From Bacillota bacterium (GTDB taxonomy: Bacteria > Bacillota > UBA4882 > UBA10575): a stretch of 56,202 nucleotides of DNA. The stretch lies in NCBI GenBank assembly GCA_012837715.1, contig DUQR01000050.1, positions 1 through 56,202 of the forward strand. Direction: 5' to 3'. The position numbers and the translations under genes are program-made. The stretch's first letter is position 1; the number at the start of each line of letters is the position of its first letter. Positions 8,402-55,084 of the stretch are shown in pieces. The notes under the pieces were generated by a model that made no database searches, was not told where the DNA came from, and saw only the letters and a program-made list of their open reading frames with translations.

Positions 8402-8420
8402 CGTTCGTTCCTCCTAATCT

Positions 8421-8538
8421 GGGCTTTTTGCGTTGTCCTTTGCCTTAACAATTCCAATACAATATATCGATCGCTAAATTAAGTCAAACTCTATATATTG
8501 TATTGGAATCCTTTTTAGTGGTTGCAACCCAAAAGTTT
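8421..8538. repeat. Dispersed palindromic intergenic repeat, copy A
   Basis: About 118 bp starting GGGCTTTTTGCGTTGTCC and CCAATACAATATAT, with the inverted inner block ATATATTGTATTGG and a degenerate far arm CCTTTTTAGTGGTTGCAACC. It is in the opposite orientation to copies B (19441) and E (48305). It fills the gap between the SpoIIM-family stop and the glyS ribosome site. Flanking ATCT occurs on both sides, which may be a target duplication. No coding capacity. Confidence 0.75.
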
Positions 8539-8594
8539 TTATCTAGTCCCCGCTTTATACGATCCTCTTTTAAAAGTTTACTCCAAAAGCGCTT

Positions 8595-9283: not shown

Positions 9284-10054
9284 TTATGAACCCGAAGGCT
9301 CCTGCCACACCAGTAAAGACTGTAAAAAGGCCAACGATTTCAGGGGCTTTTCCGCCCGCCATTGAATAAAGGCAAAAAGCAAACGACCCAATTCGTTACC
9401 AAGGGTCGGATCAACCGGGCGGCGTGCCACTGCCCGTAAATCAGCCGCGTAGAGGGCGCGGAGCTCCGCTAAGGCCGACGGCCGCAGAGGGATTAGTTTT
9501 TCGCCCGCGCTTGTGGCACAGATCCGGCAAAGCATTCCTCCTTCGACGGGGGCAAATCCTGCTAAAGACCCATGTGCACCCTCCTGACACCGGACACAAT
9601 GGTCTAAAACAGGATCATAGCCTAAATACCTTAGTAAACGCAGTTCAAAAGCCCGGGAGACCAGCATCGGGTCGGGAGTTTGTTCTAAAACCACCAGGCC
9701 GGCTAGGGTAAAAAGGAAGATTTCGGTGTTGACTTCAGCCAGGGGCAGGAAAACATCGAGCAACTCCGCCCACCAAGTGGCATAGGCCATTTTTAAAAGA
9801 TCATCCCGCAGCGGGGCAAAGGACTTAATCAGCTCCGCTTGGCTCAACTGGTCCAAATTTTTACCGGTAAAAATTAATCCCCGTAGATAGGAAAACTGTT
9901 GGGTCACCCCCACCAATCGGTTCCGGGGCCGCCGCGCCCCTCTGGCTACCGCTTCGATCTTCCCCTTTTCTTTGGTCAACAAAGTTACGATCCGGTCGGC
10001 TTCCCCGAAAACCCGGGTCCGCAGGATGATTCCTTCACAATGATAAAGCCCCAC
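9284..10054 (-). CDS. recO: DNA repair protein RecO
   Basis: A 256-residue RecO, which loads RecA with RecF/RecR and anneals single strands in recombinational repair. The N-terminal OB-fold starts GLYHCEGIILRTRVFGEADR; the C-terminal part contains the C4 zinc site CVRC...CRIC. Length matches the family. The start is GTG, with GGAGGTGA a few bases upstream. It ends the run ruvC-ruvA-ruvB-queH-DUF2905-recO and is 4 bases from the DUF2905 gene, so translation is probably coupled. Confidence 0.95.
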   Translation of the reverse strand: MGLYHCEGIILRTRVFGEADRIVTLLTKEKGKIEAVARGARRPRNRLVGVTQQFSYLRGLIFTGKNLDQLSQAELIKSFAPLRDDLLKMAYATWWAELLDVFLPLAEVNTEIFLFTLAGLVVLEQTPDPMLVSRAFELRLLRYLGYDPVLDHCVRCQEGAHGSLAGFAPVEGGMLCRICATSAGEKLIPLRPSALAELRALYAADLRAVARRPVDPTLGNELGRLLFAFIQWRAEKPLKSLAFLQSLLVWQEPSGS

Positions 10055-14424: not shown

Positions 14425-17047
14425 TTATTCGGGCTCTAAGAGCCCTTTTATTTTGGCGCATAAGTCTTCCATTTTAAAGGGTTTCGACACAACCCCTTGA
14501 AACCCGAACTTGCGGTAATCGAACATAACCGGATCTTCTGAATAGCCACTGGAGGCAACGACCTTTGCCTCCGGGTCCAAATTCAAAATATGGCGGACCG
14601 CTTCTTTCCCCCCCCATGCCCCCCGGGACCGTCAGATCGAGAATAACCACATCAAAGGGGGCTTGGTTCTTCTTTTCCCGGGTGTAAAGGGCAACCGCTG
14701 CGGCGCCATCCTTCACCACCACTGTTTCATAACCGCAACCCTCCAAATACTCCTGGAGGGAAGCCCGGATTAAAGGTTCATCATCCATCAGTAGCACCTT
14801 CCCCTTGCCCTGTAGGTGAGAAGCTTTTTTCCCTTTCTTTGCGACCACCGGTCTTTCCGTAGCCGGTAGATAAAAATAAAAAGTGGAACCCTCACCCATC
14901 CGGGACTGAACACCAAGGTAACCGTCGTGATTTTGGATAATATAGTAGCTGGTGGAGAGGCCAAGACCATTTCCCTCTTTTTTGGTGGTAAAATAAGGAT
15001 CAAAGATCTTGCTGATCATCTCTGCGGGAATCCCTGTTCCCTGGTCTTCGATCTCCACGCGCACATAATTACCGGGACGAAGTCCCATCCTATTCTGGGG
15101 GGAAACGACAACATTATGGGCGGAGATCCGGATTACACCCCCGTCCGGCATGGCATGATAGGCATTGAGCATTAAGTTTTGGATCACCTGACTGATCTGG
15201 TCACCGTCAATCTCCACCGGCCATAGATTGGAGGGCAACAGATACTGGCACTTGACAGTCGCCCCTCTTAACGCAAACTCCGCCGTTTCTTTGATAATAT
15301 TGGCCAGTTTGGCCGGCTGCTTGATGGGCGCGCCGCCTTTGGCAAAGGCCATTAATTGCTTGGTTAGTTTCGCCGCTTTTAAGATGGCCTTCTCGACTGC
15401 GTGCAGATCCTTCCTCCCGTCCAGTCCTTTTTCCCATTTAAAGGCCGCCAGTTGTACGTTGGAAAGAATCGCCGCTAGCAAATTATTGAAATCGTGGGCA
15501 ATCCCGCTAGCCAGAATTCCTAGGGATTCCAATTTTTGCATCTTCAGGAGCGAGCTGCGCTCCTTTTCAGCGGCCAGTTCCTGGACGGAAGCCTGCAGGG
15601 CTTCCTCGGTTTGGTGGTAAAGGGTAAAATCCCAGTTCGTCCCACTCAGTCGGAGCGGGTTGCCCGCGGCATCCTTCGCCAGACAAATTCCCCTGCTCCA
15701 AACCCGTTTCCAAGCACCGGATTTGGTCTTAAACCGAAACTCCGCTTCGATGTATTTTTTTTCTCCCTTCAGATAGTCATGGATGGCTTTGTCGACCACT
15801 GGCCAATCCTGAGGATGGATGTTCCGCCGGAACCACTCCTGGTGAAAAACAACTTCCCCCGGTTGATACCCTAAAATCCGCTGCCAGTTTTGATCATACT
15901 TAATCGTCCCGGTCGTCGCATCCCACTCCCAAAGGCCTTCGTCCGTTCCTTCCATGATCGCGCTGACCCACTGTTCATTCTGGCGCAGACGCTGTTCGAT
16001 CTTTTTCCGCTCCGTGATTTCAGCCTTTAATTGTTGATTCGCTCTTTCCAGACCTTCTTTGTAGCTTGTACTCTCTAAGGACAAAGCGAGTAGGTTTAGG
16101 TAGTTGAGGAGAAGTGACCGCAAACGGGGTTGGCGGATCACCCCCCGGGGTGGTAGTAAAAGATAGCCAAAGACGGAACCTGCCGTCCGGATTTCAAGCC
16201 GGTCTTCCTCCACAGTCCCAGCGGGGGTCGCTACCGATTCCGCCCAGATGCCTTTTTGTACGGTATAACCTGCTAAATACAAATAATAGTCCTTCAGATG
16301 AAAGACTGTTTCTAAAAAACTTGACGTAAACTCGGCCTTCTTTTCTAAGGTCGGCAGGGTTTTCAAAAGCGCGGTCACGATTAAAAGGACGGCAGAAATC
16401 CGTTCACACCAATTTTTTCTTGCCTTCTCTGGCCTGAAGAGACGCCTCCGTTCCGAGAGGCGAGACTGGAATAGAGGATTGTGCAAAACTTGTCCGTTGG
16501 CGATGACCATGGGGTGAGTAAATAAAAGATCCATCAAGTTGGCGCCAGAAACTTGTTTTATGTCGAACTGACAAAGCACAAGGAGGGGAAGGCCCTTGAG
16601 ACGAGCATTAATTATCTGCTCATACTCAACAAAGCGTTCCGCGCCGGGAATGCCCTTTGCTAACCAGTTGACTTCCCCAGTGACCCGCAGTAGTTTAAAC
16701 CCTTCCGCCATGGCCACTTCGGTATATTCCCGCCAGCGCTCAATCATTTCCTCCGGAAGAAAAGAACCCGCGGGAAAGTATGCCCGAGTGCTTTCCACGG
16801 TTAACCCCCGTTCCGGATCGTAACCATTGGTTTTGACCTGTTCGGTTCGGAACCAGTCCAGGATGGCTTCTTTGGTCAAAGAATCCATTAGACAAACCAC
16901 TTTTTCTCCGTTACGAATTCCGGCTGCCACATATTGCAGGATGATCCGGTTCTTCAACGCTTCCTCCTGATAGAATAAACAGGTATGGGTTCCGACCGGA
17001 ATTCGCTCTGTGGTAAATCCTAAATCCACAAAACCGCGCTTCTCCAT
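14425..17047 (-). CDS. MEDS-PAS hybrid histidine kinase, receiver domain frameshifted
   Basis: A long hybrid sensor kinase. Order: MEDS-like domain (HTCLFYQEEALKNRI, about 15-180), a GAF-like region (about 220-340), a coiled stretch (RANQQLKAEITERKK), a PAS/PAC domain (about 365-490), HisKA with the phosphorylated histidine in SGIAHDFNNLL, and HATPase (NLMLNAYHAMPDG, DQGTGIP, GNGLGLS). The receiver domain begins LLMDDEP and has the phospho-acceptor D in VVILDLTVP. After GGMGG the frame is lost: eight consecutive G (14608-14615) put the ribosome one base out and the frame ends at 14474. With seven G the frame continues to 14425 with SSGYSEDP and the conserved lysine in VVSKPFKMEDL. The kinase core is intact. 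ATG 17047 follows AAGGGGAGG. No cognate regulator is adjacent. Confidence 0.85.
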
Positions 17048-17156
17048 TAAACCTCCCCTTAACACAAGCGTCCGGTTTAGAGTATTCGCTTTTTTTCAAT
17101 GACTCCCTGCTTATTTGGAACATTTCGTATTTTTGCCTAAATTGATTTCAAAGGCA

Positions 17157-19416: not shown

Positions 19417-19440
19417 TCTTTCACCTCCTTGCCCTAATTA

Positions 19441-19559
19441 AGCTTTTTGCGTTATAACCAGTAAAAAGGATTTCAATACAATATAGAGTGTTCAGTCTAA
19501 ATTAGACTACCAATATACTGTATTGGAGTTGTTGCGGCTAAGCACAACGCAAAAAGCCC
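19441..19559. repeat. Dispersed palindromic intergenic repeat, copy B
   Basis: 119 bp beginning AGCTTTTTGCGTTATAACC, with TTTCAATACAATATAG, an inner palindrome (AGTCTAAATTAGACT), CTGTATTGGAG and the end CACAACGCAAAAAGCCC. It fills the gap between the glycosyltransferase ribosome site and the stop codon of the next upstream gene, and its last base is the first base of that stop triplet as read on the plus strand. TAATT flanks both ends, a possible target duplication. Confidence 0.8.
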
Positions 19560-21577
19560 TAATTTGAATGGGAAGTAAAGGCCAGTAATTCCAGGGCAAT
19601 CTCACACCAGACTCCGCCCTTTTCCCATTTCCACACTGGTAAAGGAGAACAATTCCACCCGGTCAGGATGGGAATCAACACTGGCACCCTGCTGTACTCC
19701 GGTGGTAAGCTTGCCCACAGTTCTTTCTGCAACCGATAATGACGATAGACTCCATCTTTTGCTAAATAGGTGATTTCACCCTTTACTTCCCCTTCCAACA
19801 AAAAAAGTTCAGCGGTTTTGATCCGACGGAACTCCCCTAAAAAAAAATGAGCCGTTAGAATCTGCCGTACCGCAGAGGGTAATTTTTCTTCCCATTTCAA
19901 AACAGCTTTTTTCTTTGGCGGGAGGATTGGCCTTTCCCCATAGTCTGGCTGCCCGCCCAGTTCAACACGGCGTACTTCTTCGGTGGTAACCACTAACCAG
20001 CCACTCAATAACAATTGGATTGAAAAGGAACCTTGGTTGTCTTTTTGTAGTTGCAAACCGATGGCTTCCGTCTTTACACATGCCTGTTGTCCACGGCAGA
20101 CTTCCGGTGAGGAATGGAACCAACTTAAGACCGGTTTCAGCTCCACCACTTTGCTTTGGTGGTCCCGATTCCGATACTGCCAGATAATTGTTGGTTGGGT
20201 GCGAATGATTACCCCGCCGTTTACCGTGTCGCCCCTTTCAGAACCCCGGCGCCACCATAAACGGTGGTTCTCGCTAAAATCCGCAGGCGTGGTAAGGGGA
20301 ATCTCTACATAATACTCGATCTTCTCTTCGGAAATGATTTTTTTCGCTAAAATGGTAGCGGTTCTTCGCGGATGCAAAGGAAGGGGTAAAGATACTTTCT
20401 GTCTTTGCGTTACCCTCACCAGGTAAGCCAGATGGAGAAAGAGGGTTAACTCATCCCCATTGGTAAAACGGATCAACTCTGTTTTTACCTCTTCCACCTT
20501 CAGGTGATGGGAGACCGTTTCCGAATGGCGGTCGACTGTCTCTTGGAAATGGGCCGCCGCGAACCATTCTTCCCACGGAATCTGTAACCGGTAAGCCTTT
20601 TCTTGGTCCTGATGGTTAATATATAAAAGTTCCAGGTCAATGCGGCCCATGCACAGCAGTCCTTTTTCATCCTTTACGGTCCACCCCTGAACACCGATCA
20701 CCGTCACTTCTTCGATCAGCTTGGCTTTTTCGGGAAGTTTAAGGTGGAACGTCCCGCCCCATTTTTCCGCTTTTTGCCCTTGCAAACGCTGGAGAAAAAA
20801 AGCCTCCCCCTCTTTGACCGGCGCTCCTTTAACCAGCAGGAGTTTCTCTTCAAACAAGCGCCAGTCAAGCTTAACGAGCAGGAGGGCTTTTTTTACACCG
20901 ATTATTTTCAGGTCGGCCAGTTCCGCTTGGCCGGTCACGATGGCGCCGACGGGAACTTTTTGCGGGATCAGGACCGAAAGCGGCCGGATTATTTTCGGCC
21001 GGTGGACGAAAATAAGCTGTAATTCTCCTTGGCAATGGATCCCCTGGGGGGTGAGGGAAAATACCACCTTGGTCAGGGTTTTTTTAACGGGAGGATCATC
21101 TCTGCTTAGCTCCGGCCAAGAAAGGGGTTCCGTATGTAAGTAACTATCCTGGGCGACCAGAATCCGGCCGCAAATGGGGATACTCTGTTCCCCCGTCGGC
21201 CAGTCTGGACTTAAAGGGCGCCGTTCCCACCCAAAGAAAGTAAGACCGATTCCCTGTTCCAAATAGGCGGTGGCTTCTTGATACTGAACGGTCAAATAGC
21301 GGCTGGTAGCTTTAACGGCAAGCGGTTGGCCCCGGATCAGACCGGGCGGTATTGTTAGCTTCCGTTCGTAAGAGATCCGGTCAACAGTCCTCTCTAATCT
21401 TCCCGTTTCCGCGATGAACAGAATTTCCCGTTCAAGATCGACCTTTAAATGCACCCGACCAGTCTCCCACTTAACCACTAAATCGTTAATGGTCAGATCA
21501 ATCCGGTGGACCTTTGCGCCGAAAGGCCAAGGGACTTTGATCATAAGTTTGCCATAGCCCCGCCACCGCTTGACCAT
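19559..21577 (-). CDS. Large beta-rich protein with divergent SPOCS-like segments
   Basis: A 672-residue protein without signal peptide or membrane helix. Several segments follow the SPOCS (DUF3794) rhythm in degenerate form, for example EEVTVIGVQGWTVKDEKG followed by a beta strand ending in a YRLQIPWEEWF-like block, and a similar unit near residues 150-260. It directly follows two genes with clear SPOCS repeats, which supports a spore-coat or cortex-envelope role, but the assignment rests on pattern and context. GGAGGGGGG precedes the ATG. The similarity to SPOCS could be tested with a profile search. Confidence 0.55.
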   Translation of the reverse strand: MVKRWRGYGKLMIKVPWPFGAKVHRIDLTINDLVVKWETGRVHLKVDLEREILFIAETGRLERTVDRISYERKLTIPPGLIRGQPLAVKATSRYLTVQYQEATAYLEQGIGLTFFGWERRPLSPDWPTGEQSIPICGRILVAQDSYLHTEPLSWPELSRDDPPVKKTLTKVVFSLTPQGIHCQGELQLIFVHRPKIIRPLSVLIPQKVPVGAIVTGQAELADLKIIGVKKALLLVKLDWRLFEEKLLLVKGAPVKEGEAFFLQRLQGQKAEKWGGTFHLKLPEKAKLIEEVTVIGVQGWTVKDEKGLLCMGRIDLELLYINHQDQEKAYRLQIPWEEWFAAAHFQETVDRHSETVSHHLKVEEVKTELIRFTNGDELTLFLHLAYLVRVTQRQKVSLPLPLHPRRTATILAKKIISEEKIEYYVEIPLTTPADFSENHRLWWRRGSERGDTVNGGVIIRTQPTIIWQYRNRDHQSKVVELKPVLSWFHSSPEVCRGQQACVKTEAIGLQLQKDNQGSFSIQLLLSGWLVVTTEEVRRVELGGQPDYGERPILPPKKKAVLKWEEKLPSAVRQILTAHFFLGEFRRIKTAELFLLEGEVKGEITYLAKDGVYRHYRLQKELWASLPPEYSRVPVLIPILTGWNCSPLPVWKWEKGGVWCEIALELLAFTSHSN

Positions 21578-21690: not shown

Positions 21691-23490
21691 TTAGAAATAA
21701 TAGGGACCATACGGGGCAGCAACTTGCACCTGCAATTGCTGGGATTCGGTAACCTTGATAAACAGTTCGACTACCACCTTCTGCCGAAGGGTAGTGCTGT
21801 CCAGTAATTCGAAGAGCACCGTCTCGATGACCGGCTTAATTCGGACATCCATGCCTGGCACGGCGCCAGGAATATCCACAAAGGTACTGAAAGGCACATC
21901 TTCGCTTTGGTGAATTTCCAGATTATCCTCGTTAATAAAGAAGATCTGTTTGTGCACAACCCCTTGAATAATGACCTTATCTTCAATTACTTCCGCCATG
22001 AGCCGTTCGACTTTGGCGACAATCTCCCTGATTTTGATCGCCGGTTGGGACAAAGTGATGGCATTCTCCACCAACAACTGCTTGGTATCTTCCCCGACCA
22101 CGGTATCCAATTTCAGCAGGGCGCCGGGACCAAGCGCCACATTCAGTTGGATGCTTTCCGTCACTTTGACGAAGAATTCAACGACCACTTTCTGGAGTAA
22201 GGTATCTTCATCCAGTAATTCAAAGTGAATAAATTCGATCGTCGGTTCAACCACTACATCCATCCCGGTGGTCGCGCCGGGGATATCAAGGAAAGTACTG
22301 AACTCTAAATCTTCCGCCTGATGGTATTCGATATTATCCAGACCAATATAGAAAATTTGCTTGTGGATGATTCCTTGAATAATTACCTTATCATCAATGA
22401 CTTCAATCGTTAAGTCGCGGATTTCCGCCGTAATATCATCGATTTTTAGAGCTGGAGCATTTAGCGTGATCGTGTTTTCAATCAGTTCCTGTTTGGTCCC
22501 TTCGCCAATTACTTGGTCTAAACGGACGAGCGGACCGGCGCCTTCCACCAGATTAAGCTGGTTGGACTCGGTAACCTTGACGAAAAACTCAACTACAACC
22601 TTTTGATGGAGTAAGTTTGATCTGATTAAAGAGAAGAGAATCGTCTCGATGACCGGGTGAACCTGCACATTCATCCCCGGTTCAGTCCCGAAGATATCGA
22701 TGAAGGTGCTGAACGGGACGTCTTCCGACTGATGATGCACGATGTTATCCTCACCAACGTAGAAAATCTGTTTGTGGAGCACTCCCTGGATGATAATCTT
22801 ATCCTGGATCAGTTCAGTGGTCAAATTACGAATCTCCGCCGTGATGTTCCTTATTTTGATTGCTGGCCGATTTAAAGCCACATTTGTCTCAATCAGAAGT
22901 TGCTTTGTGCCTTCACCGATGACCACTTCTGCCCGCACCAAAGGATCCATTAACCTATCTCCTCCTTCCAAAGTTTCTACAGGAGCCGCTTCCACGGGAT
23001 TAGGTTGAGAGCACGTAGTTTCCAGCTTTTCACCGCGCTTTTTTTTTACCTTCATTATCTCTTGCTTTATTTCTTTCGTTTCCTCCATACCGATCTGACC
23101 CTTTTCCGTTCCGGACGGGCTCTCCACTGGCCCCTCCCCAACCTCTACTGACCAGACCTTTTCTTCATCTCCTGTGCGCTCTGGTTCACGATTAGCCGTT
23201 GCCGTTCGGATCTTTCTTGATAACCACTGGTCTTTAGTCATGCTGCACAGCGATGGCCTTTCCTGATTACTATTTGCGAAAAAAGGCTTCTTCCCCCGGT
23301 CTCCTCCGGAAACCTCCCCTTGTGCGGTGGAAGGCTCCAAAAAAGAATAATCATCTTCTGCTGTCCTTTTGGCCGAATCTTGATCATCCAGAACCAGATA
23401 GCGACGGTGAAGGTTGAAAAACCAGAATGTACAGAGGGCAATCAAAGCGGTGATCAAAGCAAAGGCGCCAATTATTAGTGCTAACTCCAT
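21691..23490 (-). CDS. Membrane-anchored protein with three SPOCS (DUF3794) repeats
   Basis: 599 residues. A single N-terminal helix (LALIIGAFALITALIALCTF) is followed by a charged, low-complexity linker to about residue 185, then three repeats of about 130 residues. Each repeat contains a VIGEGTKQ-type start, xxITAEIRxLT, a DKVIIQGxxHKQIFYxG core and a closing VVVEFFVKVTES. SPOCS domains occur in spore-envelope proteins such as SipL, where they bind SpoIVA. A bitopic protein with the repeats at one side of the membrane would fit the mother cell or forespore face, but topology is not decided. AAGGGGG precedes the ATG. It follows the four-repeat gene at 23667 and shares its repeat sequence closely. 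Confidence 0.85.
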   Translation of the reverse strand: MELALIIGAFALITALIALCTFWFFNLHRRYLVLDDQDSAKRTAEDDYSFLEPSTAQGEVSGGDRGKKPFFANSNQERPSLCSMTKDQWLSRKIRTATANREPERTGDEEKVWSVEVGEGPVESPSGTEKGQIGMEETKEIKQEIMKVKKKRGEKLETTCSQPNPVEAAPVETLEGGDRLMDPLVRAEVVIGEGTKQLLIETNVALNRPAIKIRNITAEIRNLTTELIQDKIIIQGVLHKQIFYVGEDNIVHHQSEDVPFSTFIDIFGTEPGMNVQVHPVIETILFSLIRSNLLHQKVVVEFFVKVTESNQLNLVEGAGPLVRLDQVIGEGTKQELIENTITLNAPALKIDDITAEIRDLTIEVIDDKVIIQGIIHKQIFYIGLDNIEYHQAEDLEFSTFLDIPGATTGMDVVVEPTIEFIHFELLDEDTLLQKVVVEFFVKVTESIQLNVALGPGALLKLDTVVGEDTKQLLVENAITLSQPAIKIREIVAKVERLMAEVIEDKVIIQGVVHKQIFFINEDNLEIHQSEDVPFSTFVDIPGAVPGMDVRIKPVIETVLFELLDSTTLRQKVVVELFIKVTESQQLQVQVAAPYGPYYF

Positions 23491-23666: not shown

Positions 23667-26048
23667 CTATGCCCGGACGGTCTGGAGCGGAGTAACGGCA
23701 AAGATGACATCGGTGACGACTTCGATTGGCACCGGATTCGGGTTCCCGTCGTTGACCACATCCAAGAGGACCACTGCCCGTTCTACCCTTTCTATACCGG
23801 GGCCGGAGACATTGGTCACAACCGGAAATTCTCTTACTTCAACCCCGGTCGGAGTCTGGATCGGGGCCCCGACCAAAACGGTTTCGGTCACGATTCCCGG
23901 GCCGGTCACCGCAGTTACGACCTGGAAAGGTTCGGGCACCGGTGTTTCACCGGTAACTTCCGCGTTGAGCACGATAATCTGACGGAGAAAACGTCCATCC
24001 GGTGATAAAGTGAAGGAGATGTTTTCAATCTCAACCGCTACCGAGAAGGGGGTTTCAGGCGTGATTCCGGGCACCGTCACCAGAATGGAAAAGGGAATCC
24101 GTTCCGTAACCGAACGAACCACTCCATCTTCACCCACGAAGAAAACTTGTTTATTGATGATCCCGTCGATGAGCACCGCATCGTTAAAGATCACCCGCGC
24201 TCGTAAATCGCTGATTTCCCCCTGGACTTCTTTGATTTTGACCGCCGGTTGCGGTAACTCCACCACATTTTCGACGATAATCTGCTGCCGACCGGTGACA
24301 ATCCCCGCCGGTGGAACCACAACTTCAACGACAACATTACGGACGGGCGTCACCGGAATCCGCTCCCGGCGTTCAACCAGAATCTGGCGAACTCCTTCCC
24401 CGATCACCTGCTCCAATTTGAAGAGGGAGAAATCACCGGTAACCAACGGAACTTGAATTGTCTCGGTTACGACCACATTGATGAGAACAATCACCTTTTC
24501 CCGAAGAAGGGTCTCGCTTTCCAACTGGAAAAGGATGGTCTCGATGCGTGGGCGAACGGTGACGTTTAGACCAGGAACAGCCCCCGGCACATCGATGAAG
24601 AGACTAAAGCGGCGCTCCTCGGCTTGATGGTATTCGATATTATCTTCGCCGATAAAAAAGATCTGTTTATGGATTATCCCTTGGATAATCACTTTATCCG
24701 GAATTACTTCCGTAACCAGGTTGCGGATCTCACCCACAATTTCCCGTATTTTAATGGCCGGCCGTTCTAAGGTGAGGACTGATTCATTCAGAACCTGTTG
24801 TTGCCCTTCACCAATCACCTGTTCAACTTTGAACAAGGGTCCGGCGCCGATCGCCACTCTTTCCTGAATACTTTCGGTGGCTTTGACAAAGACCTCTACT
24901 ACTACTTTTTGCCTTAGTTCCGTCTCGGACAGTAGCTCAAAGAAGATCCCCTCAATTCTGGGGTGCACTTGGAGATCGACCCCCGGAACCACTCCCGGAA
25001 GATCTAGAAATAGGCTGAAAGGCACCTCTTCTGCCTGGTGGCGGGCGTTATTATCCTGATCGACAAAGAAAATCTGCTTATGAATAATGCCCTGGACCAC
25101 AACTTTATCAGGGATGACATCAGTCTCAATATTCCGGATTTCGCCACGAATTTCATCTACTTTCAGCGCAGGAACAGCCAAGGTGAAAACATTCTCAACT
25201 AGTTCCTGTTTAACCCCCTCACCAACGACCCGGGGCAAGAGCAGTAGGGGACCGGTCCCCAATTCCAACCCGACTTGGACAAACTGGGTAACCTTGATAA
25301 AGATCTCCAAGACAATCTTCTGGCGGATAAACAAGCCATCATCGGTCAAGCGAAAGAGGATCTTTTCAATTCTCGGCTGAACCTGAACGTTCATCCCCGG
25401 TTCCGCGCCCGGAAGATCAATAAAGGTACTAAAAGGCAGATCTTCGGCAAAATGCCGAACGATATTATCAAGACCAACAAAAAAGATTTGTTTATGGATT
25501 ATACCTTGCACAATAACCTTATCTTTAATGAGTTCAGCAGTTACGTTCCTTATTTCACCGGTGATGTTGCGGACTTTAACCGCCGGCATTGGCAGCTGAG
25601 TCGGGCGAACCACCGGATTGACCCGGGCGGTACGCTCACCCACAGTTACCTCCGCTCCTTGTAACCGTTGAACAAGCCCTTGATCCCGGGGGATTTCGGC
25701 GCCCAACCCACTTTGCTGATTACTCACCCGGATACGGGTCACCTGCGGGTTAAAATCTCCGGCCCAAGCAGGGGTTTTTGGTTTAACTTGAACCCGGTCG
25801 GGCATGACTAAGGTTGGGTTATCCGCTTCCAGTTCGAAGGGGAAAGAACCGGATCGGCCGTCTCCCGTTTCATCCTGAGGCGTAACCGCTAACTCCGGCG
25901 GAAAATCCTCTTTAGTCTCTGTATTTAGCTGGTCATTCGTAACCCATTCTTCGTCAATGCTTTTTTGACCGCATTCCCCATTTTCACTTTGTTCCCCTTT
26001 ATCTACTTGAACTTGTTCTTCTTTTTCCAGGTTATCATCGAACTCCAT
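23667..26048 (-). CDS. Multi-SPOCS (DUF3794) spore-envelope protein, four repeats
   Basis: 793 residues from ATG 26048, which has AAAGGAGG 9 bases upstream; the in-frame extension upstream has no ribosome site. An acidic, Gln/Glu-rich N-terminal region of about 150 residues precedes four SPOCS repeats (about 160-270, 275-405, 405-540, 570-690). All keep the core GIIHKQIFF with only small changes (the fourth reads GIINKQVFF) and the endings VxxxxRIExIxF. A more divergent valine-rich tail follows. There is no signal peptide or membrane segment, so it should be made in the mother cell cytoplasm and assemble on the forespore if it acts like SipL. It has no LysM domain, unlike SipL. The exact role is unknown. 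Confidence 0.85.
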   Translation of the reverse strand: MEFDDNLEKEEQVQVDKGEQSENGECGQKSIDEEWVTNDQLNTETKEDFPPELAVTPQDETGDGRSGSFPFELEADNPTLVMPDRVQVKPKTPAWAGDFNPQVTRIRVSNQQSGLGAEIPRDQGLVQRLQGAEVTVGERTARVNPVVRPTQLPMPAVKVRNITGEIRNVTAELIKDKVIVQGIIHKQIFFVGLDNIVRHFAEDLPFSTFIDLPGAEPGMNVQVQPRIEKILFRLTDDGLFIRQKIVLEIFIKVTQFVQVGLELGTGPLLLLPRVVGEGVKQELVENVFTLAVPALKVDEIRGEIRNIETDVIPDKVVVQGIIHKQIFFVDQDNNARHQAEEVPFSLFLDLPGVVPGVDLQVHPRIEGIFFELLSETELRQKVVVEVFVKATESIQERVAIGAGPLFKVEQVIGEGQQQVLNESVLTLERPAIKIREIVGEIRNLVTEVIPDKVIIQGIIHKQIFFIGEDNIEYHQAEERRFSLFIDVPGAVPGLNVTVRPRIETILFQLESETLLREKVIVLINVVVTETIQVPLVTGDFSLFKLEQVIGEGVRQILVERRERIPVTPVRNVVVEVVVPPAGIVTGRQQIIVENVVELPQPAVKIKEVQGEISDLRARVIFNDAVLIDGIINKQVFFVGEDGVVRSVTERIPFSILVTVPGITPETPFSVAVEIENISFTLSPDGRFLRQIIVLNAEVTGETPVPEPFQVVTAVTGPGIVTETVLVGAPIQTPTGVEVREFPVVTNVSGPGIERVERAVVLLDVVNDGNPNPVPIEVVTDVIFAVTPLQTVRA

Positions 26049-26197
26049 TTTTCTATGGCCTCCTTTCTCCGACCAACTCCCTTGCGCAAGGGAAAACCGC
26101 ACCATTCCTAAGCACGAATTAGGACTAGTACAGTATATGCTGGTCCGCAAGAAGGTGCTTATCGCCAAAGAAAAATGAAAATAAGCCCGATTAAAAG

Positions 26198-26925: not shown

Positions 26926-26963
26926 TCTCTCCCCCCTCCCTTAGCGCCTCCCGGGAATTAATT

Positions 26964-27044
26964 GGGCTTTTTGCGTTGTCCTTTGCTTAGTCAAACACTA
27001 TCTATCGGATTGGAGTCTTTTTGTTGTTTAGAGCGGAAAAAGCC
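26964..27044. repeat. Dispersed palindromic intergenic repeat, short copy C
   Basis: An 81-bp derivative with the full left arm GGGCTTTTTGCGTTGTCC, a reduced centre (CTATCTATCGGATTGGAG) and the right end GAGCGGAAAAAGCC. The inner CCAATACAATA palindrome is partly lost. It lies between the 72-residue gene and the stop of the MgtC gene, its last base being in that stop triplet. AATT flanks both ends. Confidence 0.7.
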
Positions 27045-27664
27045 TAATTCCATTCAACGCTAAAGAGTCCCGGTAACAAACGTAACTCATCCAGGACTTT
27101 TTCTTTATTGATATTATCTCCCCTTATCTGCAAAGAAATTACTGCTTTTTGTTTTTCTTCGTCAATCTCCAGATAAATTTTTTTAATACTAATCCCCTGG
27201 TCTGCAAAGACCTGACTAAAAGCAGCTAAAGCCCCCGGCCGATCGGCTAATTCGGCCCGTAGGCGCATGACCGAGCCACCAATGAATTTTCTTTCCAAAT
27301 CATCCAAAAAAACCAACACCAGTACCGCAATAACGGCAGTAATGGCGGCAGCCCAATAGAAACCGGCGCCGGCCGCCAAACCGATCCCGGCCACCACCCA
27401 GAGACTGGCGGCGGTTGTTAAACCCCGAATACTAGTTCCGTCCCGTAAGATGGTACCCGCGCCCAAGAAACCAATACCGCTGACCACCTGTGCGGCGAGG
27501 CGCGCCGGATCCCGATCTACGCCCCCGGGAAAACCATAAATCGAGATCAGCATGATCAAACAGGAGCCTAAGGCAACCAGAATATGGGTGCGTAAACCAG
27601 CCGGTCGGCCGTGTTTTTCCCGCTCCAAACCAATTATTGCGCCGAGAAAAGTTGCTACTGCCAA
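27044..27664 (-). CDS. MgtC/SapB family membrane protein with C-terminal ACT-like domain
   Basis: About 206 residues from TTG 27664. The family core AIIGLEREKHGRPAGLRTH and GIGFLGAGTILR is clear, with four further helices and an ACT-like C-terminal domain (RPGALAAFSQVFADQGISI). MgtC-family proteins are linked to magnesium limitation and intracellular fitness in other bacteria; the role here is unknown. The TTG start removes half of the first helix. In frame upstream there is no ATG/GTG/TTG before the ribosome site GAGGAGGG; an ATT at 27688, 7 bases after it, gives ITIAILVRLAVATFLG, a complete helix. A rare ATT start or a sequence error upstream is possible. Repeat copy C follows the stop. Confidence 0.85.
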   Translation of the reverse strand: MAVATFLGAIIGLEREKHGRPAGLRTHILVALGSCLIMLISIYGFPGGVDRDPARLAAQVVSGIGFLGAGTILRDGTSIRGLTTAASLWVVAGIGLAAGAGFYWAAAITAVIAVLVLVFLDDLERKFIGGSVMRLRAELADRPGALAAFSQVFADQGISIKKIYLEIDEEKQKAVISLQIRGDNINKEKVLDELRLLPGLFSVEWN

Positions 27665-39333: not shown

Positions 39334-39370
39334 GGGCTTTTTGCAATGCCTTTGCTTCTAGGCAAAAAGC
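39334..39370. repeat. Minimal copy D of the dispersed repeat, between cotJB and cotJC
   Basis: Only 37 bp: GGGCTTTTTGC and GCAAAAAGC arms with AATGCCTTTGCTTCTAG between, i.e. the terminal arms without the central part. It forms a simple hairpin just upstream of the cotJC ribosome site. ATT or TATT occurs on both sides. Confidence 0.6.
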
Positions 39371-39371
39371 T

Positions 39372-39626
39372 TTATTCGTAACAGATTTCCCAAGGCCAAG
39401 GTTCCTCAATCCACTGCCATGGATAAGAGCTTGGTTCTTGCCAGGACAAAGGTCCGTATCTTTCCTGATATTTTTGTTTTAGGACTTTTAATTGTTGGAC
39501 AAATGAATTATACTCCATTAATGCTCTCTGGTCCGTAGGATGGGTATCCAGGTAAAGATGGAACTCCAGGACGGTAAACTCCAGAGCCATTAACTCTTTA
39601 AGCATGCATAACTGTTCCCGATCCAT
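39372..39626 (-). CDS. cotJB: Spore coat protein CotJB
   Basis: 84 residues. LKELMALEFTVLEFHLYLDTHPTD and the YNSFVQQLKVLKQKY helix followed by a YGPLSWQ block and the W-rich tail PWQWIEEPWPWE are CotJB features. It is a small inner-coat protein made with CotJA and CotJC. The ATG 39626 has AAAGGGGGC upstream, 15 bases after the cotJA stop, so translational coupling within the operon is likely. Confidence 0.93.
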   Translation of the reverse strand: MDREQLCMLKELMALEFTVLEFHLYLDTHPTDQRALMEYNSFVQQLKVLKQKYQERYGPLSWQEPSSYPWQWIEEPWPWEICYE

Positions 39627-48301: not shown

Positions 48302-48304
48302 ATA

Positions 48305-48421
48305 AGCTTTCCGTTGTAACCACTAAAAAGGATTCCAATACAATAGACCTTCTTTAATTTGAACCAGTCAAGCAAAAGGTTGTATTGGCATGATTAAAGC
48401 AAAGGACAACGCAAAAAGCCC
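48305..48421. repeat. Dispersed palindromic intergenic repeat, copy E
   Basis: 117 bp, same orientation as copy B: AGCTTTCCGTTGTAACC and GATTCCAATACAATAG at one end, GTTGTATTGGCATGATT and AAGGACAACGCAAAAAGCCC at the other. It starts 4 bases after the degV stop codon, on the plus strand. The centre (ACCTTCTTTAATTTGAACC) differs between copies. The gap to the next gene is about 220 bases and contains two hairpins. Confidence 0.8.
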
Positions 48422-54935: not shown

Positions 54936-55021
54936 TGGAACGACCTCCTCAACAACTGATTTTCAGGTTATCCCAAATCTACCCTTTGGATTGTACCGAA
55001 TTATTCTATGGTTGGTTTTTT

Positions 55022-55062
55022 TTGTATTGGCATCCTTTCTAATGGTTAGAACGGAAAAAGCC
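55022..55062. repeat. Half copy F of the dispersed repeat
   Basis: TTGTATTGGCATCC and TAATGGTTAGAACGGAAAAAGCC correspond to one arm of the family (like the right arm of copies A and C); the rest is missing. It lies between the stop of the CheA-like gene and the start of lepB. TTGGTT occurs on both sides. Confidence 0.55.
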
Positions 55063-55084
55063 TTGGTTAAGTTCCTCCTCGGAG

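Follow-up and report, generated by a model that had tools for sequence, protein, structure and literature searches.

What are the palindromic repeats that are scattered across this stretch of DNA, and how did they come to be there? We analyzed the whole 56,202-nucleotide stretch (the window), a single contig from a draft genome that totals 2.44 Mb. The host is a spore-forming member of the Bacillota (it has SpoIIM, CotJB, and proteins with SPOCS domains). A first-pass annotation had noted a dispersed repeat of about 118 bp at six places, copies A to F, and suggested that it might be either a MITE-like element or a family of structured RNAs.

We read back the sequence at each of the six places, and the repeat is present at all of them (Table 1). 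Copies A, B, and E are nearly complete, as noted, but the full element (GGGC...AAGCTT) is 120 bp, and the spans of A, B, D, and E shifted to those in the table. The descriptions of C as short, D as minimal, and F as half agree with an internal deletion, a 39-bp remnant, and a half copy. Copies B and E are oriented alike, and copy A runs the other way. Motifs from the arms and inner blocks are far more common in the window than in dinucleotide shuffles (GCTTTTTGCGTT, 9 vs. 0.44; CTAAAAAGGATT, 5 vs. 0.75; CCAATACAATA, 7 vs. 0.91), and none of 100 shuffles reached these counts. The CCAATACAATA inner blocks are not separate, though: they are the two halves of a single central palindrome. Similarly, the complementarity between the arms is found at the termini and at the center and is not continuous.

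Table 1. Copies of the element in the window and their flanking duplications. Copies were scored with a profile built from 25 copies from the genome.
Feature	Position	Strand	Details
Copy A, full-length	8421..8539	+	GGGC end on the left; core at about 8460-8500; profile 106 bits, E = 3.9e-32
Copy A, flanks	8416-8420 / 8540-8544		AATCT / TATCT; duplication at 4/5 bases
Copy B, full-length (120 bp)	19440..19559	-	Core at 19479-19520; profile E = 1.5e-31
Copy B, duplication	19435-19439 / 19560-19564		TAATT; exact, 5 bp
Copy C, internally deleted (81 bp)	26964..27044	+	Left inner arm gone; profile E = 4.7e-7 (right part)
Copy C, duplication	26959-26963 / 27045-27049		TAATT; exact if the right end is one base short
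Copy D, 39-bp remnant	39334..39372	+	Both ends only; profile E = 1.9, weak alone
Copy E, full-length	48304..48421	-	Core at about 48341-48382; profile E = 8.8e-30
Copy F, right half	55020..55063	+	Half core and AAGCTT-type end; profile E = 1e-6

We identified copy D from its two intact terminal repeats and from a near-duplication, TATTT/TATTC (4 of 5 bases). Similar remnants of 38-53 bp are found elsewhere (L092, L112, and L229), and three have exact duplications. Another resemblance to copy D, at 9344-9380, falls within an open reading frame; we took it as chance. Of the short direct repeats that had been proposed as target duplications, TAATT is exact at B, AATT at C extends to TAATT, and ATCT at A becomes AATCT/TATCT, which match at 4 of 5 bases. 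The flanks of copy E do not contain a recognizable target duplication.

The family is not confined to these six places: the window's own genome has at least 50 copies. A similarity search with one copy gave 53 match rows from this genome (some of which are second-strand or partial rows for the same place), and a search for terminal repeats with at most one mismatch gave 67 matches, vs. 0 for a reversed-pattern control. The family is also present in congeners and in related genomes, with matches in 10 of the 60 other genomes. In matching genomes from the same genus or the same family, the ends are the same as those of the window's element. In three matching genomes from another family, the similarity is mostly in the middle of the element.

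The element inserts into target DNA, as proven by its scars and by empty sites. Among 142 distinct sites of elements with the window's ends (type 1), 55 are flanked by an exact 5-bp direct repeat, while 67 have no direct repeat of 4 bp or more. In a control that matched the left flank of one site with the right flank of another, about 0.5% had exact 5-bp repeats. When we varied the boundaries of the element, the duplication signal peaked sharply at GGGC/AAGCTT, with 102 observed vs. 2.2 expected (counting both strands). Some duplications read as 4, 6, 7, or 8 bp, and about half of the sites lack an exact duplication, presumably by decay. The duplicated bases are 77% A+T, so the element inserts at AT-rich sites.

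Sites that lack the element also exist. If the flanks of copy B are joined, keeping one TAATT, then they align without interruption, from 520 bp to 520 bp, to a locus in congener G006 that lacks the element. The joined flanks also have near-continuous matches in six further congeners (we inspected the alignment at the junction for G006; for the other six, several of which were retrieved in the opposite orientation, the evidence is the continuous match). Congeners also lack the element at the sites of copies A and C (for C, these include G006). In UBA5486, two type-1 copies (L175 and L116) lie inside repeats with other ends (type 4, see below), and deleting the copy and one duplication restores an uninterrupted type-4 sequence. 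UBA5486 also has about 90 right ends that are nearly identical, which marks movement in that genome as recent.

Given the high copy number, the exact 5-bp duplications, and the empty sites, these repeats are almost certainly a MITE, that is, a mobile 120-bp element without genes, and this part of the first-pass annotation is borne out. The element is short (under 500 bp), multi-copy, and non-coding, with terminal inverted repeats, a characteristic duplication, and empty-site counterparts.

The 120-bp unit (consensus GGGCTTTTTGCGTTGTCCTTTGCTTTAACAATTCCAATACAATATATTGATAGCCTGATTTAAGTTAAACACTATATATTGTATTGGAATCCTTTTTATTGGTTACAACGCAAAAAGCTT) is an imperfect palindrome. It has 16-bp terminal inverted repeats (GGGCTTTTTGCGTTGT...ACAACGCAAAAAGCTT, or GGGC/AAGC followed by TTTTTGCGTTGT) and, inside the central palindrome, a core of the form CAATATATTGATAG-N17-ACTATATATTG. 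Across five genomes, consensus identity is 0.98-1.0 at the ends, 0.88 in the core halves, 0.64-0.68 in the stretches between, and 0.75 in the loop (copies were chosen by their ends, although many loci were first fetched via the core). This pattern implies two conserved blocks, the ends and the core, that are parted by drifting arms. The inner stem covaries between lineages, with 42 double changes vs. a mean of 15.7 and a maximum of 28 if halves are swapped between sequences; this set was chosen by the core, so core conservation within it is partly due to selection of the sequences. Pairing in the stretches between the ends and the inner stem was no better than for swapped halves.

The copies within one genome look different. 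For the 25 resident copies from the window's genome, RNAalifold found no pair that was common to all, and 147 losses of pairing were one-sided while 17 were compensated. The core is kept little better than the drifting arms (0.83-0.85 vs. 0.78-0.80). Both observations imply that resident copies decay and that the constraint acts on the source elements. In other words, base pairing is not maintained among residents and is maintained only between source lineages, and it is at that level that the hairpin does seem to matter.

How widely is the core distributed? When about 85,000 species genomes were scanned, exact matches to the core were found only in MAGs that are labelled as unclassified Bacillota, including UBA5486, UBA11021, UBA5388, AS06rmzACSIP_96, AS09scLD_40, and AS23ysBPME_69. 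Within the genomes scanned, the exact core thus appears to be limited to one small group of Bacillota. If two mismatches are allowed, 8 of the 29 genomes that represent the class contain the core (one of the eight, G008, has a single doubtful match), and a control pattern had 0 matches. The viral, phage, and plasmid collections that we searched had no match.

The same core also occurs with other ends: TAAGGAATTGCATAATT...AATTATGCAATTCCCTC (type 4), TAGGCGGTTTCATAATT...AATTATGAAACACGCTC (type 2), and AGAGAATTTCAAATC (type 3). Types 4 and 2 leave a different scar. Counting both strands, 4-bp duplications were observed in 16 of 42 cases for type 4 (1.2 expected) and in 10 of 14 for type 2 (1.0 expected). 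Sorted by scar, the end pair GGGCTTTTTGCGTTGT / ACAACGCAAAAAGCTT goes with 5 bp and the pair TAAGGAATTGC / GCAATTCCCTC with 4 bp. The N17 spacing of the core also holds in a second bacterial family, where the ends differ. Most of the other-ended members were found through the core, so its conservation across types is partly ascertained. We also found chimeras of types 1 and 4, although two is a small number. In UBA5486, L284 (G011:C52:88700-89300) combines the left half of a type-4 element with the right half of a type-1 element, and its outer flanks are TTATG/TTATG. In UBA5388, L306 consists of two right arms, one of type 1 and one of type 4, connected via an inverted half core. Separately, the core of L284 holds a different insert (CTGGAGTTCTGTGAAG...GAATTCAGACT) of about 100 bp, with AATAT on both sides; this insert may be a further small mobile element, again one with a 5-bp duplication.

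Which enzyme moves the element? No copy that we examined has a gene inside it, and we found no autonomous element with the same ends, either from end pairs or by searching for PF01609, PF01526, PF01797, PF00665, and PF13701. The earlier statement that no transposase is present therefore holds for the copies examined and for these five transposase families. The six end pairs with long spacings (0.9-3.9 kb) enclose ordinary host genes and no transposase. DDE_Tnp_1 and DDE_Tnp_1_4 are both absent from three copy-rich genomes (G000, G001, and G011). Genes with rve domains are present in 7 of 8 genomes, and those of G011 look IS3-like; the stretches that we examined around the rve and DDE_Tnp_1 members had no matching ends. 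Assemblies of metagenomes often lose multi-copy genes, including transposases, so these absences are not proof. Because we found neither a transposase nor an autonomous copy, we read the enzyme from its scar. A short target duplication of fixed length is what the staggered cuts of a DDE transposase leave behind. The 5-bp duplication and the precise insertion thus point to a DDE-type transposase that is supplied in trans.

In the mechanism that we propose, this transposase would recognize the ends of the element, cut the target with a 5-bp stagger, and paste the element in, and gap repair at the staggered cut would yield the duplication. The core might act in propagation by aiding assembly of the transpososome, by forming a cruciform, or by binding an accessory protein. 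Since source lineages have kept the core while resident copies decay, the core probably serves propagation rather than the host. The core and the palindrome might also permit the swapping of half-elements, by template switching or by recombination, and a swap could let the element pass from one transposase to another. We infer that the exchange of ends is such a route. Our tentative proposal, which we consider possible but not probable, is that the core is a portable, inherited module that recruits new transposases by exchanging half-elements with other palindromic elements, and that the lineage has moved between enzymes that duplicate 5 bp and 4 bp while its core and size were kept.

A simpler view is that this is an ordinary MITE and that the shared core is a functionless remnant of a common ancestor, conserved because all of the lineages are young. 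The ends of type 1b (AAGCTAATTGCGTTGTTACCTTAA, vs. GAGGGAATTGCATAATTACCTTAA) are intermediate between those of types 1 and 4, so the types may be related by descent. However, the stretches that flank the core differ between genomes at 32-36% of positions, whereas the half-sites of the core hardly differ, and the N17 spacing was retained in another bacterial family despite the different ends. We consider this view unlikely, although it deserves to be taken seriously.

A structured RNA or regulatory family that is selected by the host (such as a 3' UTR hairpin, a terminator, or a mobile promoter) and dispersed by chance is strongly disfavored, and we think it very improbable. Its consensus fold is far better than for shuffled sequences (z = -7.65), the copies sit between genes, and the inner stem covaries between lineages. 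But Rfam gave no match at the gathering threshold, the resident copies have no consensus structure and lose pairs mostly on one side, and the insertion scars are precise, with empty sites. The copies also show no orientation bias: of 44 that lie between co-directional genes, 25 have one orientation and 19 have the other. Because residents decay and orientations are mixed, an RNA function for the host is unlikely, and the first-pass suggestion of a structured RNA family is not borne out. We did not find a promoter-like or terminator-like site within copy B. In some lineages, the reverse strand of the core has a layout similar to TTGACT-16-TATATT, but the -35 part is lost in others, and we rejected the promoter reading, for which the orientation bias is also absent. 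None of 81 copies lies in an intact open reading frame, but a copy that interrupts a gene would escape this test.

Another idea is that these are REP/REPIN-type elements, which are moved by RAYT, a Y1 transposase that recognizes hairpins. To our knowledge, Y1 enzymes leave no target duplication. Like REPINs, our elements are intergenic hairpins in high copy number, and they tolerate symmetric truncation. However, 5-bp duplications are the rule here, and the Y1 transposase (PF01797) has no match in the copy-rich genomes G000, G001, and G011, so this reading is untenable and scarcely credible. It is just as hard to believe that the element is a TIME derived from a Tn3-family transposon: the 5-bp duplication and the ends that start with GGG do fit that family, but none of the 29 genomes of the class has a Tn3 transposase above the cut-off, and the conserved terminal block is 16 bp while Tn3 ends are about 38 bp.

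How does this element compare to known MITEs? Correia/NEMIS and RUP are also short, palindromic MITEs (about 107-155 bp). Correia elements insert at TA. So does RUP, which is linked to IS630, and the longer form of Correia contains an internal protein-binding block, an IHF site (PMC2229807). Here, by contrast, the duplication is 5 bp, and an internal block is common to elements with different ends. ERIC elements, according to the available descriptions (PMC2229807, PMC10969869, and general knowledge), are also intergenic, about 120-127 bp, imperfectly palindromic along their whole length, and present in many copies across a clade. Our element differs in its 5-bp duplications (4-bp in sister elements), its changing ends, its unrelated sequence, and its host, a class of Bacillota. 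As described in the available text on QMITE1/QMITE2 and Chunjie (PMC10969869), those elements share terminal repeats, target duplications, and graded internal deletions (down to REP-like remnants) with ours, but differ in sequence, size, and duplication length (7-9 bp for QMITE2); in that text, we saw no mention of a core that is common to differently ended elements. A literature search, which was not exhaustive, found no description of this MITE family. Its anatomy, with two conserved blocks and a core that is common to elements with differing ends and scars, is new.

The usual explanation for a bacterial MITE is that it derives from a single insertion sequence by internal deletion and is tied to the enzyme of that sequence. 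Here, a core with fixed spacing spans elements with differing ends and scars in two bacterial families, and chimeras were caught in the genome. If the core is functional, this would be a tractable case of gene-less elements that outlive the transposases they need.

There is also a practical message for annotators: these hairpins, which coincide with many of the breaks in assemblies of the uncultured Bacillota studied here, are mobile DNA rather than RNA genes. Lone ends turned out to be fragments, scaffold gaps, or truncations at the ends of contigs, and end spacings of about 250 bp, which had suggested larger elements, are scaffolding runs of N. Many contigs of G011, G012, and G001 start or stop inside the element (for example, G011:C9, C16, and C35 and G012:C19 and C118), and copies are also interrupted by scaffold gaps (runs of N), so the element often causes the assemblies of these genomes to break.

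We also noticed some other features. Some copies have an extra small hairpin in the loop of the core (L216 and L217 in G001; L116 and L147 in UBA5486), such as AAGGGAATTGTC...GGCAATTCC or CACTAGTAATTGTCTAATCTTAGACAATTACC. Another palindromic repeat, GGTAGCCAGCGTGAGCGACTACC, is present at L103, L128, and L221 in UBA5388 (G012), where it takes the place of an arm in some elements or adjoins them. Elsewhere in the window, a sensor histidine kinase (14474-17065, minus strand) has an N-terminal MEDS domain and a PAS domain. Two adjacent large genes (21691-23490 and 23667-26168, minus strand) encode three and four SPOCS (SipL) domains, and DNA repeats with a spacing of 411 bases fall within these two genes.
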